NCBI RefSeq assembly: GCF_025127995.1
Contig: NZ_JAHLYP010000009.1
Location: 1-54,661 of the forward strand
From: Synechococcus sp. CS-1332
GTDB lineage: Bacteria > Cyanobacteriota > Cyanobacteriia > PCC-6307 > Cyanobiaceae
Reading direction: 5' to 3'
Length of the DNA: 54,661 bases
The first letter of the stretch is position 1; each line of letters begins with the position of its first letter. This document shows, one piece after another, positions 2,677 to 26,110 of the stretch. The position numbers were made by a program, and so were the translations under genes. Below the pieces are notes generated by a model. It saw nothing but the letters and a program-made list of their open reading frames with translations. It had not been told where the DNA came from and did not search any database.

Positions 2677-3621
2677 ATGTGCATGTTCCGGATCCGCGCC
2701 ACCGCTGCTCTGATGGGGGTGTCGCTGGCGCTGCTGCCCCTGCTGGCCCCCGCCGCCGCCCCCCTTCCCGGCCTGCTGGCGCCGGCGGGCGCCCAGCAGA
2801 GCCAGAAGGTGCTGCGTCTCGGTGCCATCCCCGACCAGAAGCCGGAGAAGCTCAACCGCCTCTATCCGCTGGTGGCCGAGGAACTGGGCCGGCAGCTGGG
2901 GGTGAAGGTGGTCTACGTGCCGGTGGTCGACTACGTCGCCGCCGTCAGCGCCTTCCGCACCGGTGCCCTCGACCTGGTCTGGTTCGGCGGGCTCACCGGC
3001 GTGCAGGCCCGGCTGCAGAAGCCGGGCGCCCGGGTGCTCGCCCAGCGCGACATCGACGTGTCATTCCGCACCGTCTTCATCGCTAACAGCCGCAGCGGCC
3101 TCAAGCCCGTCACCAGCGCCAGGGGGCTGGCGGAACTGAAGGGCAAGCGCTTCACCTTCGGCTCCGAAAGCTCCACCTCCGGTCGGCTCATGCCCCAGTT
3201 CTTCCTGGGCAAGGCGGGGGTGAAGCTGTCCGACTTCGCCGGTGGTGCTCCCGGCTTCAGCGGCAGCCATGACGCCACCATTGCCCTGGTGCAGAGCGGC
3301 GCCTATGACGCCGGCGCGGTGAACGAGCAGGTGTGGAACGCCAACCTCCACGACGGCAAGGCCAACCCCGCCAAGGTGTTCGTCCTCTGGAGAACCACGG
3401 GCTATCCCGACTACCACTGGATCGCCCAGCCGGACCTCGACAAGCGCTTCGGCAAGGGCTTCACCGCCAAGGTGCAGCAGTCGATTCTCAGCTGGCGCGC
3501 CAGCAACCCCACCCAGAAGCAGATCCTGGCCCTGTTCGGGGCCCAGCAGTTCACTGCGGCCAACGCCAAGGCTTACACCATGATCGAAGATGTGGGCCGC
3601 CAGATCGGCAAGATCCGCTGA
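2677..3621 (+). CDS. PhnD-like periplasmic substrate-binding protein, possibly for selenate
   Basis: This is a substrate-binding protein of the phosphate/phosphite/phosphonate (PhnD) superfamily, 314 residues. A signal peptide covers roughly residues 1-40 (MCMFRIRA start, hydrophobic core, cut near GAQQ). The mature part has LRLGAIPDQKPEKLNRLYPL, ALDLVWFGG and FTFGSESSTSGRL, all typical of PhnD-like proteins. A branch of this family is annotated as putative selenate-binding and tends to sit by selD and mnmH, as here; that substrate is an inference from context. No ATPase or permease is adjacent. A PhnC/PhnE-like pair lies 10 kb away at 13519-15830 and may be the partner. Phosphonate or phosphite are alternatives. 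Confidence 0.82.
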   Translation: MCMFRIRATAALMGVSLALLPLLAPAAAPLPGLLAPAGAQQSQKVLRLGAIPDQKPEKLNRLYPLVAEELGRQLGVKVVYVPVVDYVAAVSAFRTGALDLVWFGGLTGVQARLQKPGARVLAQRDIDVSFRTVFIANSRSGLKPVTSARGLAELKGKRFTFGSESSTSGRLMPQFFLGKAGVKLSDFAGGAPGFSGSHDATIALVQSGAYDAGAVNEQVWNANLHDGKANPAKVFVLWRTTGYPDYHWIAQPDLDKRFGKGFTAKVQQSILSWRASNPTQKQILALFGAQQFTAANAKAYTMIEDVGRQIGKIR

Positions 3622-4805
3622 GCCGCCTCCGCCGCGGGCATCGGACCGCCGGGCTGGCTTTGACCCTGGCCGCCCTGCTTGGGTCGCCGGGCCCTGCGGC
3701 CGCCGCCACCTGCGTGCCCGCCGGCGCCTGGGTGGAGCCCACCGCAGCCGGTCCCCGGACGGTGGCGGCCGACGACCTGCTTGATCGCCTGGCCCGGCGC
3801 CCGGTGCTGTTGCTGGGAGAACGCCACGACAGCGCCGCCCACCACCAGTGGCAGCTGGCCACGCTCGCGGCCTTGCTGGCGCGGAGCCCCACTCTCAGCC
3901 TTGGCCTGGAGATGGTGCCGCGCCGGCTGCAGCCGGTGCTCGATCGCTGGGTGGCCGGCGGGCTGGGGGAGCGCTCCTTCCTCGCGGCCCTCGACTGGCC
4001 GGCCATCTGGGGCTACGACGCCGAGCTTTACCTGCCGATCCTGCGCTTCGCCCACGACCGCCGGGTGCCGCTGCTGGCCCTGAATGTGGAGCGGCGGCTG
4101 GTGCGGCGGGTGCGGGCCGAGGGCTTCGCGGCGGTGCCCGCCGCCGAGCGGGAGGGGGTGGGCCGTCCGGCGCCGCCCAGCCAGGCCTATCGCCTCCAGC
4201 TGCACCGGCTCTGGCAGCACCATCCTTTTGTGCCCAGCAGCGGCCAGCGGCGGCCCGGGCTGGAGGATCCCTCCTTCCGACGCTTCGTGGAGAGCCAGCA
4301 GCTGTGGGACCGGGCCATGGCCGAGGCCATCACCGACCAGCGACGTCGGCGCCCCGGGACCCCGGTGGTGGCCCTCATCGGCAACGGCCATCTGGCCGGT
4401 GGCCACGGCGTGCCCCATCAGCTGCGGGCCCTTGGGCTGGGTGAGGCGGCCTGGCTACTGCCCTGGGAGGACACGCTCGACTGCGCCGAACTCCAGCCTG
4501 GGCTGGCCACGGCGGTCTTCGGAGTGGCGTCATTGCCGCCGGCGGGCCTGAAGCTTGGGGTGTATCTGGAAACCCATGGCGGCCGGGTGGAGATCCATCA
4601 GGTGGCGCCTGGTTCGCTGGCCGAGCGCTCCGGCCTGCGGGTCGGCGATGGGATCACGGCGATCGACGGCCAGCCCGTCAGCAGTGCCCGCCAGGTGATC
4701 CAGCGGGTGGCCGCCCACCCGGCGGGCCGGCCCCTCGGCCTGACCGTGCAGCGGGGCAGCCGCATCCTGACCCTGCAGCTGCAGCTGCAGCTGGCCCTGC
4801 CTTAG
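3618..4805 (+). CDS. ChaN-like (DUF399) protein with C-terminal PDZ domain
   Basis: The main domain is of the ChaN / haem-binding Tiki-like family: LLLGERHDSAAHHQWQL, GLEMVPRRLQPVLDRW and ALIGNGHLAGGHGVPHQL are its conserved stretches. Some members bind haem or act as membrane-linked proteases; the activity here is unknown. The last 95 residues or so form a PDZ domain (GSLAERSGLRVGDGITAIDG). An N-terminal signal sequence rich in Ala and Leu follows RLRRGHRTAG. No ATG fits: the frame offers CTG at 3618, overlapping the TGA of the upstream gene, or TTG at 3660, which would lose the basic n-region. The start is therefore uncertain. Likely co-transcribed with the upstream binding protein. Confidence 0.75.
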   Translation: MSRLRRGHRTAGLALTLAALLGSPGPAAAATCVPAGAWVEPTAAGPRTVAADDLLDRLARRPVLLLGERHDSAAHHQWQLATLAALLARSPTLSLGLEMVPRRLQPVLDRWVAGGLGERSFLAALDWPAIWGYDAELYLPILRFAHDRRVPLLALNVERRLVRRVRAEGFAAVPAAEREGVGRPAPPSQAYRLQLHRLWQHHPFVPSSGQRRPGLEDPSFRRFVESQQLWDRAMAEAITDQRRRRPGTPVVALIGNGHLAGGHGVPHQLRALGLGEAAWLLPWEDTLDCAELQPGLATAVFGVASLPPAGLKLGVYLETHGGRVEIHQVAPGSLAERSGLRVGDGITAIDGQPVSSARQVIQRVAAHPAGRPLGLTVQRGSRILTLQLQLQLALP

Positions 4806-4851
4806 CCCTGCCAGGGCCGTAGGGGCCACGGCCAGCGCTCTGGATCGCTTA

Positions 4852-4865
4852 GTATCATCCGATAC
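4852..4865. promoter_or_regulatory. Short palindrome upstream of the DUF1611 gene
   Basis: GTATC-ATCC-GATAC is a 5-base inverted repeat with a 4-base centre in the 160-base gap before the TTG start at 4966. The 8-mer CGCTTAGT occurs on both sides of it, near 4846 and 4872. This could be a repressor operator for the DUF1611-racemase operon. No regulator gene is next to it. Confidence 0.3.
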
Positions 4866-4965
4866 GCTTCCGCTTAGTGGGGGCCAGTGGTTATCCCTGC
4901 TCGGTTCGGCGATCGGCAGACCATGCGGCCGCCTCCCCTGAGCCTTCAGAAAGGATCAGAACCAC

Positions 4966-6132
4966 TTGACAGCTTCCTCCCGGGCCATCGGCTCGCCCTT
5001 GTCGGGGCGCGTCCTTGCCCAGCCGCAGGCGACGTCCACCCCGCTGACCACACCCATGGCAGCCGTGGTCTATTGCGAAGGGCAGTTCGCCAGCGCCGAC
5101 GGCAAGACCGCTCACGGGCTGGTGCGTTACAGCGCCCTCTACCGGATCGTGGCCGTGATCGACAGCCAGGCCGCCGGCCGTGACGCCGGGGAGCTGCTCG
5201 ATGGCCTCCCCAATGGCATCCCGATCGTGGCCGATCTGGCGGCCGCGTTCCGCCTCGGCGGCCCCACCCCGGAAGCGTTCATCTATGGCATGGCCCCGGC
5301 CGATGGTCTGTACAGCTCCAGCGACCGGCAGGTTCTTCTGGCCGCCATGGCGGCCGGCTTGTCCCTGGTGAGTGGCATGCGCGAGTTTCTGGCGGATGAC
5401 CCTGTCTTCGCCGCCAGCGCCGCAGGGCACCGGGTGACGATCCAGGATGTGCGCCGGCCGCCGGCTCTGAAGGATCTGCGGCTGTTCAGTGGCGCGATCA
5501 GCAACGTCACCTGCCGGCGCATCGCCGTGCTCGGCACGGATGGCGCCATCGGCAAACGCACCACCGCCACGCTGCTGGCGGCGACCCTCAACGATCACGG
5601 CATCCACGCGGCGCTGGTGTCCACGGGGCAGACCGGCATCATCCAGGGCGGCCGTTACGGCCTGCCGCTCGATGCGATTCCCTCCCAGTTCTGCTCCGGT
5701 GAGGTGGAGGCCGCCGTGGTGGACGCCTTCAACAACGAGCATCCCGAGGTGATCGTGATCGAGGGTCAAGGAGCGCTCAGCCATCCGGCTTACCTCTCCT
5801 CCACCTTCATCCTGCGGGGCGCCCAGCCCCAGGCCGTGATCCTCCAGCACGCGCCCAGACGCCGCCAACGCTGTGATTTCCCCGGCGTGGCGATGCCCAC
5901 GCCCCACAGCGAGATCACGCTGATCGAGGCCTTTGCACCCACCAGGGTGATCGGCCTCACGCTCAACCACGAGGGTATGAACTCCGCCCAGATCTCCGCC
6001 GCCATTGCCCTCTACGAGGCGGAACTCCACATCCCGGTCACCGACCCGCTCACCAGCGCCCCCGAGCGCCTGGTGCAGATGGTGGTGAGGTCCTTCCCCG
6101 AACTCGGCGCGGAACTGGCGGCGATGGCGTGA
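4966..6132 (+). CDS. DUF1611 family P-loop protein (DgcN-like)
   Basis: A DUF1611 protein of 388 residues. A Walker A-like loop, GTDGAIGKRTTATLL, lies at about residues 190-204. Other conserved parts are RIVAVIDSQAAGRDAGELL, STGQTGIIQGGRYG and IVIEGQGALSHPAY. Some family members (DgcN) N-acetylate D-glutamate in D-amino-acid breakdown; the substrate here is unknown. I chose the TTG at 4966 because AAAGGA lies about 10 bases upstream; ATG at 5056 is an alternative and would lose 30 residues of low conservation. It overlaps the next gene by GTGA, so the two are translationally coupled. Pairing with a racemase supports a D-amino-acid or amino-acid-epimer role. Confidence 0.78.
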   Translation: MTASSRAIGSPLSGRVLAQPQATSTPLTTPMAAVVYCEGQFASADGKTAHGLVRYSALYRIVAVIDSQAAGRDAGELLDGLPNGIPIVADLAAAFRLGGPTPEAFIYGMAPADGLYSSSDRQVLLAAMAAGLSLVSGMREFLADDPVFAASAAGHRVTIQDVRRPPALKDLRLFSGAISNVTCRRIAVLGTDGAIGKRTTATLLAATLNDHGIHAALVSTGQTGIIQGGRYGLPLDAIPSQFCSGEVEAAVVDAFNNEHPEVIVIEGQGALSHPAYLSSTFILRGAQPQAVILQHAPRRRQRCDFPGVAMPTPHSEITLIEAFAPTRVIGLTLNHEGMNSAQISAAIALYEAELHIPVTDPLTSAPERLVQMVVRSFPELGAELAAMA

Positions 6133-7196
6133 GCGCCCCGCGGCTCGAGATCGATCTCGACCGCCTGCACCACAACGCCGCCACGCTGGTGCGCCGCCTG
6201 GCGGGCCAGGGGATCGCGGTCACGGCGGTGGGCAAGGCCTGCCTCGGCAGGCCCGAAATCGTGCGCACCTGGCTGGCGGCCGGCGTGACCTCGATCGGCG
6301 ACTCACGCATCGAAACGCTGGAAGGCCTGGCCCGCGGCGGCCTCACAACGCCGACGCTGCTGATCCGTACCCCGATGCTCAGCCAGGTGGAGCAGGTGGT
6401 GGCCCATGTCACCAGCAGTTGCCACAGCGAACCGCTTGTGATCCAGGCGCTGGCGGCGGCGGCCCAGCGTCAGCGCCGGCGCCATGGCGTGCTGCTGATG
6501 GTGGAGCTGGGCGATCGGCGCGAGGGCCTCCTGCCCCGTGATCTCGAAGCCATCGCCAGGCTCACCCTGGGCCTGCCGTCGCTGCGGCTGGTGGGGATCG
6601 GCACCAACCTGGGCTGCCAGCACGGGGTGGCCCCTGACGCGGCCAACATGGCGGAGCTCTCGGCCCTGGCGGACGCTCTCGAAGCCCGCCTCGGCATCAG
6701 GCTCGAGCTGGTCTCGGGGGGTAATTCGGCCAATCTCCCCTGGCTGGCCCGGGGGGGCGCCCCGGGGCGGATCAACCATCTGCGGCTGGGGGAGGCCCTG
6801 CTGCTGGGGCGGGAACCCCTGGCACGCTGCCCCATTCCCGGCCTCCACACCGATGCCTTCTCCCTGGTGGGCGAGCTGATCGAAGTGAAACGCAAACCCA
6901 GCCGGCCCTGGGGGGAACAGGGGCTCACCAGCTTCCTGGCCACGGCCGCAGCCCCAGCGCCGGACCGGGGCTGGCGGCAGCGGGGCCTGCTGGCGCTGGG
7001 TGTTCAGGATGTGGATCCGGCGGACCTGGTGCCGCCACCGGGGGTGTCGATCGTGGGGGCCAGCAGCGATCACCTGGTGGTGGAGGCGGAGCGGCCGTTG
7101 CGGGTGGGTGAGGAGCTGCGCTTCCAGCCTGGCTACAGCGCCCTGCTGCGGGCCATGACCAGCCCCTTCGTGCACAAGCACTGCCTCAAGGGGTGA
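6129..7196 (+). CDS. Alanine/ornithine racemase family PLP enzyme
   Basis: The protein has the fold III alanine-racemase N-terminal barrel. The PLP-binding Lys is probably in AVGKACLGRPEIV near residue 35, followed by IGDSRIETLEGL and LMVELGDRREGLLP. VSGGNSANLPWL and RINHLRLGEALLLG match the Orr/YhfX branch rather than classical Alr. The GTG start overlaps the TGA of the upstream DUF1611 gene. The likely reaction is racemisation of an amino acid such as ornithine or alanine; which one cannot be read from sequence. The gene ends 12 bases before the tail of a broken SDR copy on the other strand. Confidence 0.8.
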   Translation: MSAPRLEIDLDRLHHNAATLVRRLAGQGIAVTAVGKACLGRPEIVRTWLAAGVTSIGDSRIETLEGLARGGLTTPTLLIRTPMLSQVEQVVAHVTSSCHSEPLVIQALAAAAQRQRRRHGVLLMVELGDRREGLLPRDLEAIARLTLGLPSLRLVGIGTNLGCQHGVAPDAANMAELSALADALEARLGIRLELVSGGNSANLPWLARGGAPGRINHLRLGEALLLGREPLARCPIPGLHTDAFSLVGELIEVKRKPSRPWGEQGLTSFLATAAAPAPDRGWRQRGLLALGVQDVDPADLVPPPGVSIVGASSDHLVVEAERPLRVGEELRFQPGYSALLRAMTSPFVHKHCLKG

Positions 7197-7208
7197 CTGC
7201 CTCCGGCC

Positions 7209-7393
7209 CTACCAAGGCAGGTTCTGGCCGTTGGCATGCCAGAAGCTGCCGCTCGTCTCCAGGCTGCGGGCATCGATGCGCTCCAGCAGGCCGTGCACCG
7301 ACTCCTCGGTGCTGATCGCCTGGTCGCTGAAGCCTGTCACGCGGGTGCGCACCAGGCCGGGAAGAAACAGGGGCCCGGTAATGCCCCGGGGCC
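7209..7393 (-). pseudogene. Fragment: C-terminal tail of a short-chain dehydrogenase
   Basis: Read on the minus strand, this stretch ends with NGQNLPW and a stop. It matches base for base, with scattered changes, the last 190 or so bases of the intact SDR gene at 11345-12010, which ends NGQILPW. The match stops near 7393, where unrelated sequence begins. Only the C-terminal 60 residues or so remain; the Rossmann fold and catalytic residues are missing. It is one arm of the duplicated block described at 8420-11345. Confidence 0.8.
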
Positions 7394-7451
7394 GCCAGGC
7401 CCGGGGCCCCCAACGTCGAGAGTTTCCAGGGCAGCAGAACCTGCCGTGGGA

Positions 7452-8423
7452 TCAAGGCGCGATCCCGTACATCTCTCTCACCTCCTCCAGCGGCTTGTCG
7501 AAGTCGTCCCAGGGGTCCCAATCGCTGATCAGGTCGCGGTTCACCTTGCTGCCCCGTTCCAGGCCATGGATGACCGCCTCCGGGGTGACCTGGTCCGTTT
7601 CGGCGTCGTTGAAGGGTGTGCTGCCGATCCCCAGCTGGAGCTGGGCCAGCGCGAACAGAATCGTGTAGAAGGGATCGCTGCGGCCGAAGCCGGCCTGAAA
7701 GCCGATCACCCCGCATTCCCCGGCCCGGCTGGGGTCGTAGCCGCCGAGCACGTGGCAACAATCGTGGCGCACGACCGGCGGCGGTGGGCCACCGCGTTCA
7801 CCGGGCACACTGAAGCCGTTGTCGTCAATGAAGGCGAGGTAGGCGCGGCCGAGGCTTGCCTCGGGATAATCGGCCAGCTGGCGGTAGTGGGCGGCCAGTT
7901 CGCGGTCCTCCCGGTGGAGAAGGTGGCGGGCGATCTGCAGGGCGCCATCCATCCCTTCATCGCGGAGGTAGCTCAGGGTGGCTCCCTTCTGAAAGCCGCG
8001 TCGGGCGATGTCGAGTCGCACGAGATTGAACTGGCCATCGAGAACATGACGGAAGCTGGTCACGACGGTGTCGCCGATGTCGAGGGCCGTTGCTGTGGCT
8101 TGCAACCATTGCAGCTGAGCGGTGCTGGGCTCTCGCTCCATCAGAGCCAGGACGGTCATGCCACGCAGGATCCGTTCGCGCCACTCGGGCTCCGGCACGG
8201 CCTCGGCCAGCTGCTCAGGGTCCAGAGGAATGATCTCCTCCAGTGGAATCGGCAGATGGATCAGGTGATCGCGGATGGCGGTGATCGTGCGGCGGGCGAT
8301 GGCGCTCGGCTGGCCCTCCACAGATGCGATCGCCAGCAGGCTGCCCAGCCCGGCCCGGCCGATGGCCTCGCCCCGACCAGGCGGTGGTTGGAGCTGGGGG
8401 GTGGTGCAAGGAATGTCCGTCAG
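7452..8423 (-). CDS. TerB-like plus Coq4-like two-domain protein
   Basis: The N-terminal 110 residues or so resemble the TerB helical domain: LGSLLAIASVEGQPS and, one repeat later, LALMEREPSTAQLQWL, which mirror the two acidic motifs of TerB. The C-terminal half has VVRHDCCHVLGGYDPSRAGE, close to the HDxxH..G..xxGE metal site of Coq4 from ubiquinone synthesis. Function is unknown; a quinone or polyprenyl-linked role is only a guess. The start is unclear: no ATG, GTG or TTG precedes the TerB motif. CTG at 8423 overlaps the stop of the pterin dehydratase remnant and is shown here; GTG at 8321 would cut the domain. The 5' end may have been altered by the neighbouring duplication. Confidence 0.6.
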   Translation of the reverse strand: MTDIPCTTPQLQPPPGRGEAIGRAGLGSLLAIASVEGQPSAIARRTITAIRDHLIHLPIPLEEIIPLDPEQLAEAVPEPEWRERILRGMTVLALMEREPSTAQLQWLQATATALDIGDTVVTSFRHVLDGQFNLVRLDIARRGFQKGATLSYLRDEGMDGALQIARHLLHREDRELAAHYRQLADYPEASLGRAYLAFIDDNGFSVPGERGGPPPPVVRHDCCHVLGGYDPSRAGECGVIGFQAGFGRSDPFYTILFALAQLQLGIGSTPFNDAETDQVTPEAVIHGLERGSKVNRDLISDWDPWDDFDKPLEEVREMYGIAP

Positions 8424-8600
8424 GCGTGACCGTCTCCGTGAACGATGACATCGAACGTCGCCGCCAGCACCACATCGGAGCGGGTCAGTCCCTCCGGATC
8501 GTGGGTGTAGGTGATGGCTTCTGCGTAACCCCATCCCAGCTTGAAACCATCACGGTGCCCCTGCTCCTCACAGATGGCTCCGGCATGACGCACCCAGTGG
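8420..8600 (-). pseudogene. Fragment of pterin-4a-carbinolamine dehydratase
   Basis: About 58 codons beginning at WVRHAGAICEEQGHRDG and running through FKLGWGYAEAITYTH and EGLTRSD match the C-terminal half of the intact gene at 10319-10777. The N-terminal half, which holds the W...F.DF segment, is missing, and the sequence upstream is in other frames. The catalytic HH pair of the family reads HR here. I treat it as a decayed duplicate. Confidence 0.75.
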
Positions 8601-8834
8601 GGGTCAATGCGGGGCCAACACCTCGGGCAGGGATGCAGAGTTCGTCGCGTATTTCCATGGTTCAATTTCTTCCATTCCTCCTGGGATCAGGTTAACGAAA
8701 CTGGCGTCAACTGGAGAGGCTTTTTCAAAGGGCAGAGGACGCATCCAAGGCGCAGATCGACGGCGCATCAGATGCTGAGCCATGGCGCACCCAGGCATCT
8801 GGGAGAAATAGGCTGCATCGAAGGCGTCGCTACA

Positions 8835-9142
8835 AAGAATTCCTGGCGGAGGTTGGGGCGATTGCCAGGGCTCAGCCACCGATCAGTGGCTGGTGGATCA
8901 TGGCATCAAAGCTGGACTATCGGATGAACAGGCCTGGCTCTACACCCAGCCCACGTGGATGTTCACGAGCCGCAAGCTTGCGACTGTGCGGAAGGCAGAT
9001 CTTCGCTTCGTGCAGGGTGCGGTCACGCCTGTGCACCAGCAGATGGTCGCCGCTGCGGATCGTCTTTCCACCCCTGAGGCTCATCTCGACGCGGGCTTTG
9101 GCAGAGGCCTTTGCTGAGCTCCACTACGCGCTGCCGGGGTAA
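8835..9142 (+). pseudogene. Broken dihydrofolate-reductase-like (RibD C-terminal) gene, copy 1
   Basis: The stretch from about 8880 to 9060 matches the DHFR-like remnant at 11050-11240 closely (shared peptides WLYTQPT, FTSRKLA and VRKADLRFVQGA). The end, AELHYALPG plus stop, matches the end of the intact paralogue at 31474-32046 but lies in another reading frame. About 55 codons around the GGGELAAQ region are missing. So the copy has lost its start, an internal segment and its frame. Confidence 0.8.
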
Positions 9143-9327
9143 CTCCAGGTGTCCAGTCCCGCCTGGAATCTGAGGATGTGGTGATCACTCGAGGAATGGC
9201 GAGCGTTGAGTGGCTTTGTGAGTCAGCCCACGTGACCAGGCGCTCGTGTAGGGCGGATTTTAATCAATGAATGGAACTCATTGGCAGGGGTGATGATTAG
9301 AGTTGGAAAGAGTTCAGGGCCCGGCTG

Positions 9328-10257
9328 ATGGCTTCAGGCAAGCAACGAGCGATCCGGCGTTTTCCCACTGCTTCGATTCGACTGTTGAAGCACGGCGGCA
9401 TCGTCTCAGTCGTGAATTCAGCTGACTGGATCCGGCATTGGCGCTACCCCAACGATGTGATGCTGGCCGTGTCTTGGCCCACTTTCTTCGGGCTGGTGGC
9501 AGCTGCCTATCTACTCCTCAACCTGACCTTCTCCTGCCTGTATTGGTTGGATCGCCACGGCATCGGCGGTGTGGCGGGTCAGTCCACAAGGTTTGACGAC
9601 GCTTTCTTTTTCAGTGTGCAGACGCTGGGCTCGATTGGGTATGGCGTCCTCTATCCAAGCAGTCTCTATACGAATGTGATCGTCACTATTGAGTCGCTGA
9701 TGGGGATTGTGTTCATCGCCTTGATCACGGGACTGGCCTTCAGACGCTTTTCACGGTCCACAGCTCGCATCCTGTTCTCGGAGGTGGCAACGATGCATGA
9801 CTACGACGGTCAGCACTCCTTGATGTTCAGATTGGCCAACGAACGCAGGCGTACGATTCTGCAGGCCAGAATTCAGGCCTATCTGGCCATCGATGAGCGC
9901 ACTGTTGAAGGGTACCGAATGCGGCGTCTCTATCCGATGAGATTGCAACGGGAGCATTCACCCCTATTTCTACTCACCTGGACGGCGATGCATTCCATCG
10001 ACTCGACCAGCCCGTTGCATGGCCTATCGCTCGATGATCTAGCCGCCAATCACGCTGACATCGTGGTGTCGTTCAGTGGGATCGATGAAATCTTAGAACG
10101 ACCCATCCATGCCCATCACAACTACCCCATCTCCAAGGTGTTGTTTGATCAGGCCTTCGTGGAGATGATGCGTGATGAGGACGACGGAAGCGAAAGCTTG
10201 ATCGTCGCCAATTTCAACCGAACCCACCATTGCCCCTCCAGCACGAGGGCTGATTGA
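9328..10257 (+). CDS. KirBac-type inward rectifier potassium channel
   Basis: A 309-residue channel of the bacterial inward-rectifier (KirBac) family. Two membrane helices lie near residues 50-75 and 115-140. Between them the pore loop FSVQTLGSIGYGVLYP carries the selectivity filter SIGYG at about 102-106. The C-terminal cytoplasmic domain has FRLANERRRTILQARIQAYL, SPLFLLTWTAMHSID and the ligand-binding beta sandwich typical of Kir channels. It should pass K+ inward across the plasma membrane. It stands alone between two copies of the duplicated pterin-dehydratase/DHFR block, and its base composition is lower in GC than the flanks, so it may have arrived with the rearrangement. Confidence 0.88.
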   Translation: MASGKQRAIRRFPTASIRLLKHGGIVSVVNSADWIRHWRYPNDVMLAVSWPTFFGLVAAAYLLLNLTFSCLYWLDRHGIGGVAGQSTRFDDAFFFSVQTLGSIGYGVLYPSSLYTNVIVTIESLMGIVFIALITGLAFRRFSRSTARILFSEVATMHDYDGQHSLMFRLANERRRTILQARIQAYLAIDERTVEGYRMRRLYPMRLQREHSPLFLLTWTAMHSIDSTSPLHGLSLDDLAANHADIVVSFSGIDEILERPIHAHHNYPISKVLFDQAFVEMMRDEDDGSESLIVANFNRTHHCPSSTRAD

Positions 10258-10318
10258 AAGTCCGTACAAACTGGGGGAACGTGGTTCGGTCCGCTTGGAC
10301 TGAAGGCAGAAGATCTCC

Positions 10319-10777
10319 TCAGCTCATATCGACACCTTGGATGGAATCAAGTTCTGTGGCCAGAGCGATATCAGCTCTGGTGAGTCCTTCAGACTTGTGG
10401 GTGTAGGTGATCGCTTCCGCATAACCCCAGCCCAGCTTGAAATCGGCATGGTGGCCCTGCTTCTCACAAATGACACCAGCGTGACGCACCCAGTCGAGGG
10501 CTGAGCTGAAGTCCTGAAAGGTCCAGGCTTTGTGCAAGTGATGGCCATCGACAAGATCCCAGCCTGTGAGCACGCCAAGGGAATCTGCGATCTCATCTGG
10601 TGTCAGGTTGGGAGCACGATCCTCGAGAGGGCTGTCGACGTTGTCGCGTAATACATCGTGTAATACCATAATCTGTTCAATTTTTTCTTGGACTAAGAAC
10701 AACCTAGCGAGGGAGAGGTCGGCTGAAGGATCTTTCTTGGTTGCCAAAGATGCAGTCAAGGTGCTGATCTGCGGCAC
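10319..10777 (-). CDS. Pterin-4a-carbinolamine dehydratase family protein
   Basis: The C-terminal 100 residues fit 4a-hydroxytetrahydrobiopterin dehydratase: GWDLVDGHHLHKAWTFQDF, ALDWVRHAGVICEKQGHHAD and THKSEGLTRADIALA. The enzyme dehydrates the 4a-carbinolamine formed when tetrahydropterin is oxidised. The catalytic HH-D cluster is present in QGHHADF. The first 50 residues are not typical; an ATG at 10666 would give a standard-size protein. A decayed second copy lies at 8420-8600. The neighbour on the other strand is a broken DHFR-like gene, so a pterin or folate theme is shared by both copies of the block. Confidence 0.75.
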   Translation of the reverse strand: MPQISTLTASLATKKDPSADLSLARLFLVQEKIEQIMVLHDVLRDNVDSPLEDRAPNLTPDEIADSLGVLTGWDLVDGHHLHKAWTFQDFSSALDWVRHAGVICEKQGHHADFKLGWGYAEAITYTHKSEGLTRADIALATELDSIQGVDMS

Positions 10778-10903
10778 ATAAGGTACTCAGTTCTTTGCGC
10801 TCAGCCCTTCAAAAAACTGCCGCCTGTGATGGAAGGCAACCGATGTAATCAAGCTCGCTTAACCCCTGCTTTGGCCTCGACCTTCAACATCGTCAATCCC
10901 TCA

Positions 10904-11270
10904 GTGAAAACCCAGTCCTATTCCGCCTGCAGCCTGGATGGTTTCATCGCCATCAAGGACAACTCCCTGAACTGGCTGCTTCCGTTCGGTGCAGTAGAAG
11001 GACCAGGCTGTATAAACGTCCTGGCTGAGGTTGGGATGATTGGCATGCGCACAGCCACCGATCAGTGGCTGGTGGGTCATGGCATCAAAGCTGGACCATC
11101 GGATGAAAAGACCTGGCTCTACACCCAGCCCACGTCGATGTTCACGAGCCGCAAGCTTGCGTCCGTGCGGAAAGCGGATCTGCGCTTTGTGCAGGGTGCG
11201 GCTACGCCGGTGCACCGGCAGAGGGTCGCCGCTGCGGTGGGGAAGACCATCTGGATTGCCCCTCCTTGTG
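10904..11270 (+). pseudogene. Broken dihydrofolate-reductase-like gene, copy 2
   Basis: From a GTG at 10904 the peptide VKTQSYSACSLDGFIA parallels the start of the intact paralogue at 31474 (MKTQYYTAASLDGFVA). Homology continues to VGKTIWIA, after which the last third, including the NADPH-site GGGELAAQF part, is gone and the sequence runs into the tail of the convergent SDR gene. The frame stays open to 11533 only by reading through antisense of the SDR. I regard it as a truncated, probably inactive copy. Confidence 0.75.
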
Positions 11271-11344
11271 CCGCGTCAACCGGACGGGGAGATGGCTGGG
11301 ACCTGATCAGCCTGCCTTGGTCTGATCCTGTTTCGACTGGTCCC

Positions 11345-12010
11345 CTACCAGGGCAGGATCTGGCCGTTGGCATGCCAGAAGCGGCCGCTGGTCTCCAGGG
11401 TGAGGGCATCGATGCGGGCCAGCAGGCCGTGCACCGACTCCTCGGTGCTGATGCCCTGGTCGCTGAAGCCCGTCATGCGGGTGCGCACCATCCCCGGATG
11501 CAGCAGAGCCACGGCGATGCCCTGGGGCCGTAGGTCGATGGCCAGCGACTTGCCGGCCATGTTGAGCGCCACCTTCGACATGCGGTAGCCGTAGGCGCGG
11601 CCGGAGCTGTTGTCGTCGATCGAGCCCATGCGGCTGGTCATCAGGATCACCTTGGCGCCGGGCGGCAGATGATTCATCAGGGCCTGGGTGAGCCGCAGGG
11701 GGGCGATGGCGTTCACCTCAAACTGGCGCCGCAGGCTGTCGACGTCGAGGTTGTCCAGGCTGGTGCGCTCCAGCAGGCCGGCGTTGAGGATCAACCCGTC
11801 GATGGAAAGCGGGCCGAGCCGGCCCACCAGATCGGCGATGGCGGCCCCGTCGGTGAGGTCGACCCCCGCCTCGATGCGCACCCCCATGGCTTCCAGTTCC
11901 GGCGACGGCGTACGGCAGACCGCCACCACCGTGTCGCCCCTGGTCTGGAGCTGGCGGCAGTATTCCAGGCCGATGCCTCGGTTGGCGCCGGTGATCAGAT
12001 AGGTGGCCAT
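11345..12010 (-). CDS. Short-chain dehydrogenase/reductase
   Basis: A classical SDR of 221 residues. The NAD(P) site TGANRGIG is at residues 7-14, NAG occurs in LILNAGLLE, and the catalytic Ser and Tyr-Lys lie in MTSRMGS and YGYRMSK. The start at 12010 (MATYLITG) fits the family; an upstream in-frame start at 12079 only adds non-conserved residues. The substrate is unknown. The last 190 bases are duplicated at 7209-7393. It runs in the same direction as the CDF gene upstream, 37 bases away. Confidence 0.85.
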   Translation of the reverse strand: MATYLITGANRGIGLEYCRQLQTRGDTVVAVCRTPSPELEAMGVRIEAGVDLTDGAAIADLVGRLGPLSIDGLILNAGLLERTSLDNLDVDSLRRQFEVNAIAPLRLTQALMNHLPPGAKVILMTSRMGSIDDNSSGRAYGYRMSKVALNMAGKSLAIDLRPQGIAVALLHPGMVRTRMTGFSDQGISTEESVHGLLARIDALTLETSGRFWHANGQILPW

Positions 12011-12047
12011 CGGGGACGCGCTCGCTGCTGTCTGGATCGTATGGGGC

Positions 12048-12956
12048 TCAACCCTCCTCCCAGCGGAATCCCTCGTCATCCCAGGCCCTGGGATCCTCGA
12101 TCGGCTCGAGGTGAGTCAGCACATCGCTGCGGGGCAGGGCGATGGCGATCTCCTGCTCCAGCTGCTCGCAGAGGTCATGGCCGTCCTGGACCGTCCATTG
12201 CCCCGGCACCAGCACATGGAAGGCCACGAAGCGGCGTGATCCGGCCACCCGGGTGCGCAGGGCGTGGAAGCGGATGCCCTCAGTTTCATGGGAGGCCAGC
12301 AGCGCCTCCAGCTGCTCCTGCTCGTCGATGGGGAGCGAACGGTCGAGCAGGCCGGAGGCGGTTTCCCGCAGCAGATTCCAGCCGGTGAGGGTGATGTTGA
12401 GCGCCACCGCGATGGCGATCAGCGGGTCGAGGATCGTCAGGCCGGTGACCTTCACCAGGCCGATGCCCACCAGCACCCCGCAGGAGGTCCAGACGTCGGT
12501 GAACAGATGGTGGGCGTCGGCCCGCAGGGTGATCGAGTGGAAGTGGCGGGAGGCCTGCAGCAGCACCCAGGCCACCAGGCCGTTGAGCACCGTGGCCACC
12601 AGGGAGAGGGCCATGCCCAACCCCAGTTGCTCCAGCGGCTCAGGAGTCTGCAGGCGGCCCACAGCCGAATAGATGATCGCCAGTGCGGCCAGCACGATCA
12701 GCACGCTCTCCAGGCCGCTGGAGAAGTACTCGGCCTTGAAATGGCCGTAGTGGTGGGTGCGGTCGGCGGGCTTGGCGGCGAGGCTGAGGGCCCAGAAGGC
12801 CCCCAGGGCCGCCACCAGATTCACCCCGGATTCCATGGCATCCGAGAGCAGGCCCACCGAGCCGGTGAGTCGCCAGGCCGCCGTCTTGAGCACGATCGTG
12901 GCCACCGCCGCCGCCACCGACAGCAGGATGTAGGAGCGGGGGGAAGCAAAGGCCAT
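12048..12956 (-). CDS. Cation diffusion facilitator (FieF-like) metal efflux protein
   Basis: A CDF-family proton-coupled antiporter of 302 residues for divalent metals such as Zn, Fe, Co or Cd. Six membrane helices are visible, with the metal-site pattern LLSDAMESGVNL in TM2 and ADAHHLFTDVWTS in TM5. THHYGHFKAEYFSS is the usual loop after TM2. The cytoplasmic C-terminal domain ends in VLTHLEPIEDPRAWDDEG. The TM2 motif carries DxxxxxxN rather than the more common DxxxD arrangement, so the metal preference is uncertain. Confidence 0.86.
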   Translation of the reverse strand: MAFASPRSYILLSVAAAVATIVLKTAAWRLTGSVGLLSDAMESGVNLVAALGAFWALSLAAKPADRTHHYGHFKAEYFSSGLESVLIVLAALAIIYSAVGRLQTPEPLEQLGLGMALSLVATVLNGLVAWVLLQASRHFHSITLRADAHHLFTDVWTSCGVLVGIGLVKVTGLTILDPLIAIAVALNITLTGWNLLRETASGLLDRSLPIDEQEQLEALLASHETEGIRFHALRTRVAGSRRFVAFHVLVPGQWTVQDGHDLCEQLEQEIAIALPRSDVLTHLEPIEDPRAWDDEGFRWEEG

Positions 12957-13029
12957 GGGGTGACGGACCTGACCGGGACTGTTGAACCAGCCTGGCTGCG
13001 GCGCCCCGGCCCGTCAGCCCGTTGGCTGT

Positions 13030-13404
13030 TCAGGCCGCGGGACGCTCGGCCACCAGCAGCAGGCCCCCCATGATCGAGAGGTTCTTCAACAGCGCGATCC
13101 GCTCCTGGGGGTCGGCCAGATCGTTGTGGAAGATCAAGGTGGTGGGCACCAGGAACAGGAGCAGCAGGATCGCCCCGAGCCGCACCCGGAAGCCGCTGAT
13201 CACCAGCACCGAACCGACGGCCATCAACGCCATGGCGGCCGCCAGCAGCACCGGCGCGATCGGCAGGCCCCGACCGGCCATCATCCCGGCCACCCCGGCG
13301 AACCCCGTCAGCTTGCCGATCACCGCATGGAGGAACACCAGGCACAGCAGCACCCGGGCGATGCCATCAAGGAGAGAGGGTCTGGAACCCGTGGAGGAGG
13401 TCAT
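13030..13404 (-). CDS. DoxX family membrane protein
   Basis: A 124-residue protein with four hydrophobic helices: RVLLCLVFLHAVIGKLTGF, PVLLAAAMALMAVGSVLVI, GAILLLLFLVPTTLIFH, and a last one near NLSIMGGLLLVA. The pattern and the LADPQERIALLKNLSIMGG end are typical of DoxX/YphA proteins. The role is unclear; some relatives act in redox or oxidative-stress complexes. The ATG at 13404 opens the only frame with these helices. It diverges from the ABC ATPase gene. Confidence 0.75.
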   Translation of the reverse strand: MTSSTGSRPSLLDGIARVLLCLVFLHAVIGKLTGFAGVAGMMAGRGLPIAPVLLAAAMALMAVGSVLVISGFRVRLGAILLLLFLVPTTLIFHNDLADPQERIALLKNLSIMGGLLLVAERPAA

Positions 13405-13518
13405 GGGCAAGCGTGCGGATGGGGAGAGTCTGCTGGCCGTCCCCCTGGCCTGACGTGCCAAGGGGCCATGGCCTGACGACTGGCAATCTGGACCGAGCCT
13501 TTGCTGTTTCCGTCTGTC

Positions 13519-14289
13519 ATGGCCGCCGGCCCCCCCACCGCCGTGCTCGCGCTGCGGGGCATCCGCGTCAGCGGCCGCGATCGGCCCCGGCTGGAGGACG
13601 TCGATCTGAGCCTGGCCCCCGGCGAGCGGGTGGCGTTGCTGGGGGCCAGTGGCGCCGGCAAGAGCACCCTGCTGGCGGTGGCCAACGGCCTGCTGGCGCC
13701 GGTGGCGGGCACGGTGCTGTGGGAGGGGCAAGCCCCCGCCCGCTCCCGCCGCGGCCGCCGCCGCCAACAGGCCCGCATCGGCACCCTCTGGCAGGACCTG
13801 CGCCTGATCGAGGAGCTCACTGTCCAGCAGAACCTCAACGCCGCCCGGCTGGCCCGCTGGGGCTGGCCCCGGGCCCTGCTCAACCTGCTCCTGCCCCTCG
13901 ACACCGACGCCTGCGCGGTGGCCCTGCGGGCGATGGATCTGGATCCGGCCCTGTTGGAGCAGCCGGTGACGGCCCTCTCTGGCGGTCAGCGCCAGCGGGT
14001 GGCGATGGCCCGCCTGCTGCGCCAGGAGCCCACCCTGCTGCTGGCCGATGAACCCCTGGCCAGCCTCGATCCGCGCCTGGCCAGCGAGCTGCTGGCCCTG
14101 CTGCTGGCCCAGGCCGTGGCCCCCCGGGCCCTGCTGCTGAGCCTGCATCGCCCCGACCTGCTGGACGGCTTCGATCGGGCCGTCGGCCTCAAGGACGGCC
14201 GGGTGCTGTTCGATGGGCCGGTGGCCCGGGTGAACGCGGCCCTGCTGGCGGACCTCTACGGGGGTACCCCGCACGGCCCGTCGCCTTGA
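13519..14289 (+). CDS. PhnC-like ABC transporter ATP-binding protein
   Basis: ATPase subunit of an ABC importer. Walker A is GASGAGKST, the Q-loop is LWQDLRLIEELTV, the signature is LSGGQRQRVAMARLL, and Walker B is LLLADEPLASLD. The closest class by length and pattern is PhnC (phosphonate). The ATG at 13519 (MAAGPPTAV) is preferred to the TTG at 13501. Its end overlaps the permease start by TTGA. No substrate-binding protein is adjacent; the PhnD-like gene at 2677 is the best candidate in the window. Confidence 0.85.
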   Translation: MAAGPPTAVLALRGIRVSGRDRPRLEDVDLSLAPGERVALLGASGAGKSTLLAVANGLLAPVAGTVLWEGQAPARSRRGRRRQQARIGTLWQDLRLIEELTVQQNLNAARLARWGWPRALLNLLLPLDTDACAVALRAMDLDPALLEQPVTALSGGQRQRVAMARLLRQEPTLLLADEPLASLDPRLASELLALLLAQAVAPRALLLSLHRPDLLDGFDRAVGLKDGRVLFDGPVARVNAALLADLYGGTPHGPSP

Positions 14290-15830
14290 AACCGGCCGCG
14301 CCGCTGCTGATGCTGCTGCCGGCCCTGGTGCTCGTGCCGCTTGCTTTCCTGCTGCCGCCCCTGGTGCACGGGGGCGGCTGGGAGCTGATCGGCAGCTTCG
14401 CGCTGGCGGCGGTGACCCCCTCGCTGGATCCGGTGGTGCTCGCGTCGCTACTGGGGGGGCTCGGGGTGACGGCCGGCATGGCCCTGCTGGGCTGGGCCGG
14501 CAGCCTGGTGCTGGGCCTGCTGCTGGGGGCGGCCAGCTCCCGCACCGTGTGGCGCACCCTGACCGGCAGCGCCCTGCCGGCGGAGCTGATTCGCCGCCTG
14601 CTGGCCTTGCCCCGGGCGATCCATGAACTGATCTGGGGCCTGCTGCTGCTCCAGCTGGTGGGGCTGCAGCCGGCGGTGGCGGTGCTGGCGATCGCCCTGC
14701 CCTTCGGCGCCTTGGTGGCGCGGGTGCTGTCCGACCTGCTCGATGCCCTGCCCACCGCCAACCTCGAAGCCCTGCGGGCGGCGGGAGCCCCGGCGCCGGT
14801 GGCCCTGCTCACGGCCCTGGGGCCGGCCCTGCTGCCGGGGGTGCTCAGCTACGGCGGCTACCGGCTGGAGTGCGCCCTGCGCAGCGCCACCCTGCTGGGG
14901 GTGTTCGGCCTTGGGGGCCTGGGCACCGATCTGAAGCTGACGCTGCAATCGCTGGAGTTCCATGAACTCTGGAGCGGCCTGTGGCTTCTGCTGGCGGTGA
15001 TGCTGGCCCTGGAGGGGTGCATCAGCCTGCTGCGCCGTCGCTGGCTGGTGCCCGGCCGTTTCGTGCTGGCCCGGCGGGGTGTGGGGGAGCGCAGCCGCGA
15101 GATGTTGCTGACCCTGGCCGCCCTGGTGCCCCTCTGCCTGCTGGTGGGCCGCGGGCTGGGGGTGGATCCGGCGGCCCTGCTCCACTGGCAGCCCCTGCCG
15201 GGGCTGGGCGGCGGCGACTGGGCCGCCACCGCCGCCCTGCCCTGGCCCCGGCTGGTGGGGGGCACCCTGCTGCTCACCGTCCTGGCGGCCAGCCTCGCGG
15301 TGGGTTTGGCTCCGCTGCTGCTGCTCGTCGTGGCGCCCCTGGGCTGGGCGCGGCAGGGGCTGCGGCTGCTGTGGGCCCTGGGGCGCCTGTGGCCGCCGCC
15401 GCTGAGCGCCCTGCTGCTGCTGTTCGTGCTGGAGCCGGGGGTGATCACCGCCGCCCTGGCCCTGGGCTTCCACAACCTCGGGGTGCTGGGCCGGCTGCTG
15501 CTGGAGAGCACAGGCGCCACCGATCCGGCCGCCGAAGAGGCCCTGGCCTGCGGCGGCAGCGGCCCACGGCTGGCCCTGCTCTACGGCCGCTTCAGCGCCC
15601 TGGCCCGGCCCTACCTGGCCTACGGCGCCTACCGGGCCGACGTGATCCTGCGGGAATCGGTGGTGGTGGGCCTGGCGGGAGCGACCGGTCTGGGCAGCCA
15701 GCTGCTGGAAAGCCTCAGCTCCTTTGCCTGGGACCAGCTGCTGGCGCTGGTGGCGGTGTATGCCCTGCTCACCTTGGTTGGCGAGGACCTCAGCGACCGG
15801 GCCCGGCGTCGCTGGCTGGCGGCGGCCTGA
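14286..15830 (+). CDS. PhnE-like ABC permease, two permease domains fused
   Basis: A 514-residue membrane protein with about twelve helices in two halves. Each half has an EAA-type coupling loop: ANLEALRAAGAPAPVALL in the first and EEALACGGSGPRLALLYGRF in the second. Each half thus corresponds to one PhnE-type permease. The TTG start overlaps the ATPase stop. Fused tandem permeases are seen in phosphonate- and iron-type importers. Together with the upstream ATPase it forms the membrane core of an importer. The link to selenate is inferred from the PhnD-like gene beside mnmH. Confidence 0.82.
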   Translation: MKPAAPLLMLLPALVLVPLAFLLPPLVHGGGWELIGSFALAAVTPSLDPVVLASLLGGLGVTAGMALLGWAGSLVLGLLLGAASSRTVWRTLTGSALPAELIRRLLALPRAIHELIWGLLLLQLVGLQPAVAVLAIALPFGALVARVLSDLLDALPTANLEALRAAGAPAPVALLTALGPALLPGVLSYGGYRLECALRSATLLGVFGLGGLGTDLKLTLQSLEFHELWSGLWLLLAVMLALEGCISLLRRRWLVPGRFVLARRGVGERSREMLLTLAALVPLCLLVGRGLGVDPAALLHWQPLPGLGGGDWAATAALPWPRLVGGTLLLTVLAASLAVGLAPLLLLVVAPLGWARQGLRLLWALGRLWPPPLSALLLLFVLEPGVITAALALGFHNLGVLGRLLLESTGATDPAAEEALACGGSGPRLALLYGRFSALARPYLAYGAYRADVILRESVVVGLAGATGLGSQLLESLSSFAWDQLLALVAVYALLTLVGEDLSDRARRRWLAAA

Positions 15831-23660: not shown

Positions 23661-24533
23661 GTGAAACGCTTTCTGCGCTTTCACGGGATGCGGCATCCAC
23701 GGGAAATGGGCGAGGAGGAGATCAATGCCTTCCTGTCGCATCTGGCCACAGTGGGGCAAGTGAGTGCCTCCACGCAGAACCAGGCGTTATCCGCCCTGCT
23801 CTTTCTCTACAGGCACGTGCTCGGGGGAGATGTGGGCAACCTGGAAGGGGTGGTGCGCGCCCGTCAGCCCAAGCGGTTGCCGGTGGTGTTCACGGTGGGG
23901 GAGACGAGGGAGGTGCTGCAAAGGCTCCAGGGAACCGAACAGCTTGTGGCGCAGATGCTCTATGGCAGCGGACTGCGGCTGATGGAAGCGCTGAGGCTCC
24001 GGGTGCAGGATGTGGAGATTGAGGTCAGGCAAGTGACCGTCCGCAGCGGCAAAGGCGACAAGGACCGGGTCACCGTGTTCCCCGCCAGCCTGATGGAGCC
24101 CTTGCAGAATCATCTGCTGGTGGTGCGGCAGATGCACCGAACCGACCTGGCGGCAGGCTGGGGGAGGGTGGTGCTGCCGATGGCACTGGGAAGAAAGTAC
24201 CCGAACGCCGCCTCGGAATGGGGCTGGCAGTGGGTCTTTCCACAGTCTCACCGTTGGCGTGACGCCAGGACCCGAACGGAAGGCCGGCACCACATTGACC
24301 CATCCGTGATCCAGAAGGCTGTGAAGCGTGCAATCCTGAGCGCCGGAATCAGCAAGCCGGCAAGCTGCCATACGTTCCGCCACTCGTTTGCGACTCACCT
24401 GCTGGAGCGCGGCCAGGACATCCGCACCATCCAGGAATTGCTTGGGCACAGCGACGTGAAGACCACGATGATCTATACCCATGTGCTGAATCGCGGCCCT
24501 TGCGGGGTGATGAGTCCGGTGGACCTTCTGTAG
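23661..24533 (+). CDS. intI: Integron integrase, N-terminus probably damaged
   Basis: A tyrosine recombinase of the IntI class. The catalytic set is present: R106 (YGSGLRLMEAL), K131 (SGKGDKDR), H237 and R240 (CHTFRHSF), H263 (LGHSDVKTTM) and Y272 (IYTH). The IntI-only insertion lies at about 185-212 (EWGWQWVFPQSHRWRD ... GRHHID). It would recombine attI and attC sites. The GTG at 23661 is the first usable start but has no ribosome site. The same frame upstream still encodes IntI-like SYAQW back to a TGA at 23625, and another frame holds an ATG at 23600 with MDR, so about 38 bases seem deleted in the N-terminal helix. Cassettes follow on the same strand. Confidence 0.9.
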   Translation: MKRFLRFHGMRHPREMGEEEINAFLSHLATVGQVSASTQNQALSALLFLYRHVLGGDVGNLEGVVRARQPKRLPVVFTVGETREVLQRLQGTEQLVAQMLYGSGLRLMEALRLRVQDVEIEVRQVTVRSGKGDKDRVTVFPASLMEPLQNHLLVVRQMHRTDLAAGWGRVVLPMALGRKYPNAASEWGWQWVFPQSHRWRDARTRTEGRHHIDPSVIQKAVKRAILSAGISKPASCHTFRHSFATHLLERGQDIRTIQELLGHSDVKTTMIYTHVLNRGPCGVMSPVDLL

Positions 24534-24888: not shown

Positions 24889-25596
24889 ATGAAGACCTCG
24901 AGCTTGTGCGTCAACCAGTTGAGCGAGGCCAGATACAAGTGGTATTTGGAGTACCTAGACGCGCTCGATGCCAAGAATGTCGAGCGCTACGGTTCGTTTC
25001 TCGCCGAAGGTTGCGAGCTGGTCATGAATAACGCAGAGCCGGTCGTTGGCAAGGAGTCGGTCCTGGCGGGCCTGTCCTACTACTGGCGCTCGTTCGGCAA
25101 TCTTGAGCACGAGCTTCTGAACATCTACGGCACGGACAGTTCGTTCATGCTTGAGGCTTTAAACCACTACCAACGCTTAGATGGCAAGGCAGTGACCCTC
25201 CGGGCGGTTGCCCTCACCGATCGAAACGAGTCAGGCGAGGTAACTTCGGTACGGCTCTACACAGACACCGGACCGCTGTTCGCGCAGGATGCCGCATATC
25301 AACCGGTTGCAGCGGTCGGCGCTGGGGCGCCGCCGCTGAACCGGAGCGTTAGACAGGCCGAGGACCGGTTGCGTCTCCGTATCCCTGGGGATACAATGGT
25401 GGCTTGCTGGAGATTCGGGAGACCCCTGCCTATGCCGCATGGTTCAGTGGGCTGCGCGATCGCGCGGCAAAAGCCCGCATCGATATTCGGATTAGGCGTT
25501 TATCCCTGGGAAATCCAGGTGATGTCCGTCCGGTCGGAGAAGGTGTCTCTGAGCTTCGGATTCGTTATGGCCCTGGCTACCGGATCTATTTCATAA
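24889..25596 (+). CDS. NTF2-like (SnoaL/DUF4440-type) cassette protein, stop lost
   Basis: The first 140 residues form a small NTF2-like domain: LSEARYKWYLEYLDALDAKN, RYGSFLAEGCELVMNNAEPV and VRLYTDTGPLFAQ. Proteins of this fold bind or isomerise small molecules; the function here is unknown. ATG 24889 follows GGAG by a good distance. The natural end should be at about 25300. There the codon CAA falls exactly on the attC left core, where TAA would give both a stop and a consensus core. With C the frame reads on through the attC and into the toxin gene to 25596, adding about 98 probably meaningless residues. Confidence 0.65.
   Translation: MKTSSLCVNQLSEARYKWYLEYLDALDAKNVERYGSFLAEGCELVMNNAEPVVGKESVLAGLSYYWRSFGNLEHELLNIYGTDSSFMLEALNHYQRLDGKAVTLRAVALTDRNESGEVTSVRLYTDTGPLFAQDAAYQPVAAVGAGAPPLNRSVRQAEDRLRLRIPGDTMVACWRFGRPLPMPHGSVGCAIARQKPASIFGLGVYPWEIQVMSVRSEKVSLSFGFVMALATGSIS
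25297..25354 (+). other. attC site 1
   Basis: A compact 58-base attC. The stem is nearly perfect: CCGGTT-g-CAGCGG-t-CGGCGC pairs with GCGCCG-CCGCTG-AACCGG, leaving an extra G and an extra T on one strand, the asymmetry by which IntI recognises the right strand. The right core GTTAGAC (25348) fits GTTRRRY. The left core TATCAAC deviates from RYYYAAC at its first two positions. Confidence 0.85.
25369..25397 (+). promoter_or_regulatory. Promoter of the toxin-antitoxin cassette
   Basis: TTGCGT (25369-25374) and TACAAT (25392-25397) are separated by exactly 17 bases, a good sigma-70 promoter. Transcription would start at about 25404, where the toxin's TTG codon lies, so the message may be leaderless. 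Toxin-antitoxin cassettes in integrons often carry their own promoter. Confidence 0.6.
25379..25394. promoter_or_regulatory. Palindromic operator in the toxin-antitoxin promoter
   Basis: GTATCCC-TG-GGGATAC is a perfect 7-base inverted repeat that covers the promoter spacer and runs into the -10 box. This is where an HTH antitoxin such as the one at 25704 would bind to repress its own operon. Confidence 0.6.
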
Positions 25597-25694: not shown

Positions 25695-25703
25695 GGAGAG
25701 CCA

Positions 25704-26095: not shown

Positions 26096-26110
26096 TGACC
26101 AAGAAATGAA

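Follow-up and report, generated by a model that had tools for sequence, protein, structure and literature searches.

One-sided illegitimate joining has been described in naturally competent species, in the passages cited here from PMC3240628. For the slots of the type VI secretion system (T6SS) of Vibrio cholerae, part of PMC5361080 proposes that homology acted at one end and an illegitimate join at the other, a combination it calls rare. The replacement flexible genomic islands of aquatic prokaryotes, as outlined in part of PMC4033161, exchange their gene sets by homologous recombination and typically encode exposed structures. A locus comparable in several respects lies in Synechococcus sp. 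CS-1332 (assembly GCF_025127995.1, contig NZ_JAHLYP010000009.1, positions 1 to 54,661, forward strand). This whole stretch of 54,661 nucleotides, hereafter the window, makes up an entire contig in a 57-contig draft genome with a listed completeness of 99.42 and contamination of 0.03. Within it, genes for a short-chain dehydrogenase/reductase (SDR), a pterin-4a-carbinolamine dehydratase (PCD) and a dihydrofolate reductase (DHFR)-like protein each occur twice. Comparison with related genomes suggests that this block is probably a variable slot between a ChaN gene and the SDR gene, with two of its haplotypes placed one after the other in the window, whichever of the two received the other.

Organization of the block

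The features of the slot and its borders are as follows, with genomes used for comparison denoted by G numbers and open reading frame abbreviated as ORF.

3633..4805 (ORF 3333-4805), plus strand: ChaN/PDZ gene, left slot border; Pfam Cofac_haem_bdg and PDZ
4966..6132, plus strand: DUF1611 gene; Pfam DUF1611, E 5.4e-65
6129..7196, plus strand: alanine/ornithine-racemase-like gene, the DUF1611 partner; Pfam Ala_racemase_N
7209..7394, minus strand: SDR tail A, putative relic comprising the last 61 codons of an SDR gene; from self-comparison
7395..7429, no strand: junction between SDR homology and homology to the G022 slot
7452..8423, minus strand: Coq4-like gene; 91% amino acid identity to the G022 slot copy
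8432..8658, minus strand: PCD-A, broken pterin dehydratase; two pieces with 82% and 79% amino acid identity to the intact G022 PCD-A
8829..9136, plus strand: DHFR-A, RibD_C/DHFR-like remnant with an internal deletion; collinear with G124
9328..10257, plus strand: KirBac-type potassium channel gene, full length; Pfam IRK_C, E 1.5e-18
10319..10666 (ORF open to 10777; internal Met at 10666), minus strand: PCD-B, intact pterin dehydratase; Pfam Pterin_4a
10904..11260, plus strand: DHFR-B, RibD_C/DHFR-like, 3' third lost; residues 1-144 of 213
11268..11344, no strand: spacer to the SDR gene, homologous to the G022 DHFR-SDR spacer
11345..12079, minus strand: SDR-B, intact SDR gene, right slot border; Pfam SDR; a CDF gene adjoins in 16 loci including the window
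12048..12956, minus strand: CDF cation efflux gene, right flank; Pfam Cation_efflux

The initial annotation had described this order, the strands and the doubling of three genes, and self-comparison, Pfam matches and gene mapping bear all of this out: positions 7207-12079 hold SDR tail (-), Coq4-like gene (-), PCD-A (-), DHFR-A (+), KirBac (+), PCD-B (-), DHFR-B (+) and SDR-B (-). Comparison of positions 6000-14000 with themselves yields three off-diagonal matches at E <= 1e-3, all direct repeats, namely the DHFR-like repeat (8841-9058 with 11019-11237, 89.5% over 219 nt, 288 bits), the SDR repeat (7207-7394 with 11343-11530, 87.2% over 188 nt, 232 bits) and the pterin dehydratase repeat (8483-8598 with 10379-10494, 81.9% over 116 nt, 115 bits). 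These scores lie far beyond those of shuffled controls (n = 20, 3-base blocks), whose top off-diagonal score is 39.2 bits and whose mean is 31.3. The decay that was also claimed is evident, with PCD-A, both DHFR copies and the SDR tail all broken; what is predicted to be functional in the block is a single gene each for PCD, SDR, KirBac and the Coq4-like protein, with no full-length DHFR-like gene. A mobile element inside the block was considered and set aside, as the window contains no tRNA and no transposase or integrase was found among the block ORFs scanned with Pfam, a scan that did not extend to every small ORF.

The slot in related genomes

A search for the SDR gene in 42 genomes of the genus returned 32 close loci, including the window and two loci in G006, and the window genes were mapped onto all 32 by tblastn (E <= 1e-3). 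The CDF gene adjoins the SDR gene in 16 of the 32, window included, and ChaN lies to the left of the SDR gene in 13 of these 16, being missing in G002 and not seen in G008. Among the 16 SDR-CDF loci, the slot holds only the PCD-DHFR pair in three (G022, G012, G017), only the DUF1611-racemase pair in three (G061, G027, G008), neither pair in eight (G011, G024, G003, G062, G002, G060, G007, G005) and both pairs in the window alone, while a contig end cuts the remaining one (G025). Neither pair was seen in the other 16 SDR loci, of which several are short contigs.

Two haplotypes thus occur separately in other genomes. Haplotype I consists of ChaN, the DUF1611-racemase pair and SDR; haplotype II consists of ChaN, optionally the Coq4-like gene and PCD-A, and then PCD-B, DHFR and SDR. 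The left part of the window's slot, including the SDR tail, matches haplotype I, and the remainder matches haplotype II. An unduplicated version exists in G012, which reads ChaN, PCD-B, intact DHFR, SDR. The G017 slot retains a remnant of the Coq4-like gene. In the G022 slot the Coq4-like gene is followed by an intact PCD-A and the remnant of a DHFR tail and then, after some 6.7 kb occupied by other genes, by PCD-B, DHFR and SDR. Stress-type cargo is present in the G022 slot (L034 7931-13600: two CsbD-like, MgtC and metallothionein genes, with one CsbD-like match below the Pfam cut-off), and a CsbD-like gene is found in the G017 slot (L038 8978-9256).

Racemase tract, SDR tail and junction

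The DUF1611 and racemase genes are 96-97% identical to those of G061. Their synonymous divergence (dS) from that genome is 0.06 and 0.08, compared with 0.32 for ChaN, 0.36 for PhnD, 0.18 for SDR, 0.16 for CDF and 0.15 for PhnC, so that the tract appears to have been exchanged more recently than the sequence on either side, and its edges lie close to the ends of the operon; a tract of lower divergence (0.06-0.08 within flanks of 0.15-0.36) is a mark of a scar left by illegitimate recombination. In family assignment, the nearest NCBIfam model for the DUF1611 gene is DgcN, below its cut-off (152.8 vs 480 bits), and the racemase-like gene scores 308 vs 480 bits against Orr.

The end of the racemase gene (7100-7199) is identical to G008 at 96 of 100 positions, and the succession of racemase stop, 12-bp gap and SDR stop aligns without gaps to both G061 and G008, which identifies SDR tail A (7209-7394) as the natural neighbor of the racemase. 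The SDR homology stops, as judged by eye, at about 7391-7399, and homology to the G022 slot begins at 7430, corresponding to 25 bp past the ChaN stop in G022. The intervening 7395-7429 continues neither and constitutes a junction without homology, for which the best matches elsewhere, short and rich in GC, fall on the opposite strand (23 nt at 91%; G011, E 2.5e-05; G022, E 5.7e-05). At the other SDR copy, 11268-11400 matches the G022 DHFR-SDR spacer at 79.7%. The two SDR ends therefore have different left neighbors, the racemase for tail A and the DHFR-B spacer for SDR-B, each of which is natural elsewhere in a different haplotype; on this basis they look like alleles of one gene, and their identity to each other falls within the between-genome range of 81-98%.

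At alignment columns invariant in 15 other genomes, SDR tail A carries 10 changes, the highest count of all rows, whereas SDR-B carries 2 and other genomes 0-7, a pattern that is as expected of a relic though the margin is not wide. These relic-like changes, together with the roughly 30 bp of filler at the junction, would not be expected of an assembly chimera. Such an artifact is conceivable in a draft of 57 contigs in which the window is one entire contig; given also the listed completeness and contamination, it is highly improbable.

Pterin dehydratase copies and the Coq4-like gene

Both PCD copies match the Pfam pterin dehydratase family, at 8420-8665 with E 2.6e-06, just above the cut-off, and at 10319-10777 with E 9e-20; PCD-B scores 71 bits against Pterin_4a (cut-off 26) and shares 86% amino acid identity with the G022 PCD-B. 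In a tree of 17 PCDs, in which the window's PCD-A is represented by a 56-residue fragment, group A unites this fragment with the intact G022 PCD-A and a G027 pseudogene (support 93/93), group B unites PCD-B with sequences from G022, G012 and G017 (100/100), and the two are sister groups (90/85). Since each copy groups separately with other genomes, the doubling appears older than the split of these species, and such an order of events is consistent with the Coq4-like gene adjoining PCD-A in the window as well as in G022. A PCD-A relative in G027 (L045 6278-6619; 91.7% over 145 nt, with an in-frame stop) lies on the same contig as the G027 slot, about 160 kb away.

The PCD active-site motif is taken here to be E/D/K/H-x3-H-H/N-P/C/S ... 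W ... H ... D. In PCD-B the sequence is E-KQG-HH-A ... W ... H ... D, where A occupies the P/C/S position, and in the window's PCD-A an R replaces the second H. The source genome also encodes a more widespread, distant PCD with 32% identity to PCD-B.

The gene adjoining PCD-A had been labeled TerB-Coq4. Its Coq4 part survives only as a weak match below the cut-off (17.4-18.6 bits vs 22.9 across the three copies scanned; E 0.0013 for the window copy), and the TerB part finds no match at E <= 1. A second Coq4-like gene (G000:C11:75343-76287, locus L039) shares 72% amino acid identity with the G022 slot copy. In G003, G007 and G005, such a second copy lies about 8 kb to the left of a SelD-like gene, and because this position recurs it is probably an older, fixed copy.

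DHFR-like copies and the KirBac gene

The DHFR-like proteins belong to Pfam RibD_C, as matched by the intact G012 gene; fragment 10907-11263, the sole window DHFR fragment scanned, gives no Pfam match. DHFR-A is collinear with G124, a member of another genus in the same family: 8829-9056 and 9050-9136 correspond to G124 9572-9800 and from 9928, respectively. An alternative in which the DHFR-A remnant had received an inserted piece of DHFR was dropped, as G124 shows the same collinear order. G124 carries PCD-B, an intact DHFR gene, a homologous spacer and a broken KirBac start in succession, and the collinearity extends over window positions 9050-9479 at 78.5%. The DHFR-KirBac spacer, 69% identical over 193 nt, is matched in only one of the 31 KirBac loci compared, that of G124. 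This shared order places KirBac with copy A and speaks against its late insertion into a duplicate, as the initial annotation had supposed, even though only a remnant of the channel gene persists in G124. The KirBac protein itself matches Pfam IRK_C (67.5 bits) and Ion_trans_2 (29.7 bits), both above cut-off.

Related genes occur elsewhere in the window. A second, distant IRK_C-containing protein is encoded at 41860-42888 (-), with 26% identity to the block KirBac, and an intact DHFR-like (RibD_C) paralogue lies at 31474-32046 (+), with 57% amino acid identity to the G012 gene; relatives of the latter occur in other genomes of the genus, and at the seven loci inspected no PCD adjoined them.

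The same evidence bears on an in situ tandem duplication of a PCD-DHFR-SDR block followed by decay and KirBac insertion, the single round of duplication originally proposed. All three repeats are direct, as such an event would leave them; DHFR-A and DHFR-B are each other's nearest rows at 90%, in a tree without resolution; and both SDR ends group with G008 and G024, in a tree built on 188 nt only. A tandem duplication would also leave sister copies with like flanks, whereas PCD-A and PCD-B fall into separate groups common to other genomes, the left neighbors of the SDR ends differ, and the DHFR-KirBac order is common to another genus. A single tandem duplication was accordingly rejected on the slot states in relatives, the SDR-end contexts and the PCD grouping, and the scheme as a whole is improbable.

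Proposed origin of the probable mosaic

The two-haplotype arrangement could be explained if a DNA piece carrying the DUF1611-racemase pair and 188 bp of the SDR 3' end had entered a chromosome of haplotype II. Joining of the incoming piece would have taken place immediately after ChaN, with no long stretch of homology, so that the SDR end remained as a scar, a process corresponding to homology-facilitated illegitimate recombination. The PCD-DHFR doubling would be older, situated inside haplotype II, partly common to G022 and unevenly decayed, with KirBac belonging to copy A. This direction is mildly favored and not proven.

The opposite direction, in which a piece of haplotype II DNA was taken into a chromosome of haplotype I through homology inside the SDR gene and an illegitimate join at about 7394-7430, would yield the same product. 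It fits the affinities of the SDR-B 3' end, which is closest to G008 (93.6%), G024 (92.0%) and G061 (91.5%) and not to the haplotype II genomes (G022 85.1%, G017 87.2%, G012 89.9%). Against it, a join falling 25 bp behind the ChaN stop would be a matter of chance, and the spacer to the left of SDR-B is G022-like. This course is included in the end-to-end reading and is possible, if rather doubtful.

Several observations weigh against the joining of two haplotypes. No genome representing the stage just before the fusion turned up, and no homologous anchor was seen, given that the G061-like tract stops short of ChaN: identity steps at about 4805-4900, yet ChaN itself is not G061-like (dS 0.32). 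Divergence from G061 in the genes of the right flank is only about double that of the exchanged pair, and relative to G008 the racemase dS is 0.11 but that of DUF1611 is 0.32, so that DUF1611 is not recent there and the exchanged tract is itself patchy. SDR tail A is 85.6-88.8% identical to G061 and G008 although the adjoining racemase reaches about 96-97%, a divergence that would call for relaxed selection or else for a different or older donor, and its count at invariant columns is only narrowly above those of G027 (7), G002 (6) and G024 (5). About 30 bp of the junction are unexplained, only group B of the PCD tree reaches the firm-support mark of the tree tool, and the mutual closeness of the two DHFR copies fits an in situ copy. 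Read as two haplotypes end to end, the block is a scar of a known, ordinary kind and a clear example of a recombination mosaic. Direct repeats beside broken genes can be two alleles placed end to end and not a duplication, and reading them in this way alters the annotation and dating of such regions.

Association of PCD with DHFR

Close-subfamily DHFRs were searched for in 42 genomes of the genus and 299 of the order, two overlapping sets. Full-length members occur at six places (G012, G017, twice in G022, G124 and G189), and a divergent PCD or its remnant adjoins all six, being intact in four and broken in G189 and at the second place in G022. G124 and G189 share some flank, whereas the slot, the second place in G022 and G124 have nothing in common beyond the pair, which implies at least three contexts.

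Elsewhere the pairing was not observed. Of the 80 best among 392 DHFR relatives, 78 lie outside the genus, and none of these had a PCD in the DNA covered, at most 5 kb on each side. Nor was a PCD found at seven of eight loci of the next DHFR subfamily (54-58%), mostly within 1.5 kb per side and with G011 left out, and no DHFR was seen beside further PCD loci of the genus (10) and the family (9). The pair was likewise not seen in 28 of the 32 SDR loci, some of which are cut by contig ends, and membership of the SDR in a pterin module was rejected on this ground.

The initial annotation had suggested that PCD, the DHFR-like reductase and the SDR form a small pterin redox module. Its PCD-DHFR component holds within the close subfamily, while pairing across the DHFR family and inclusion of the SDR do not, so that the module is partly supported, as a pair without the SDR whose joint action on pterins is a prediction. 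The pair appears as a lineage-limited association that often loses one partner, and in the window both DHFR copies are broken. It is a speculative and rather unlikely proposal that this cyanobacterial family has a small cassette, the divergent PCD-DHFR-like pair with KirBac downstream in some cases, which moves between chromosomal contexts and recycles a pterin under stress; the window would then stack two generations of it in one slot. A literature search limited to titles and the beginnings of abstracts returned nothing on pterin-4a-carbinolamine dehydratase with dihydrofolate reductase in cyanobacteria. The association offers a small, testable clue to why these cyanobacteria have additional pterin dehydratases.

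Other features of the window

To the left of the slot lies a phosphonate-type binding protein gene (2677-3621), and to its right an ABC ATPase and a permease-like gene (13501-15830), the latter with a match just below the Pfam cut-off; the binding and ABC genes are about 10 kb apart.

An integron integrase is encoded at 23661-24533 (+; NCBIfam TIGR02249, 426 bits, cut-off 265). Farther along, a pair of 88-nt repeats (27023-27110 and 28187-28274, 86% identical) starts with GCCTAAC and ends with GCGTT, ends that are presumably attC-like. All five plus-strand GCGTTAG words of the window fall within 25346-30420, and none was found on the minus strand; a scan of the window for attC-type sites with strict arms found none. 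The integrase together with 25346-30420 may represent a chromosomal integron and its cassettes. According to part of PMC8352920, attC sites are known from cyanobacteria.

Comparison with known systems

Within the portions of the sources cited, the locus resembles the T6SS effector-immunity slots and orphan immunity genes of Vibrio cholerae, in which a module is acquired in a variable slot and earlier content is left over (PMC5361080). What is left over here is instead 61 codons of the SDR gene at the slot border, as a relic, and neither toxin nor immunity genes are involved. As in replacement flexible genomic islands, one position holds differing gene sets in related strains; unlike these islands (PMC4033161), the slot is of small size and its genes code for enzymes and a channel. 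Laterally gained genes common to strains are likewise a feature of the genomic islands of Synechococcus/Cyanobium picocyanobacteria, as described in part of PMC7522525, where the present slot does not feature. A further parallel is provided by pneumococcus merodiploids arising through natural transformation, in which uptake of a fragment leads to side-by-side copies. According to the passages cited from PMC3784515, these are mostly tandem duplications of about 100-900 kb produced by unequal crossing-over, whereas the window doubles gene ends only, in an allele-like manner.

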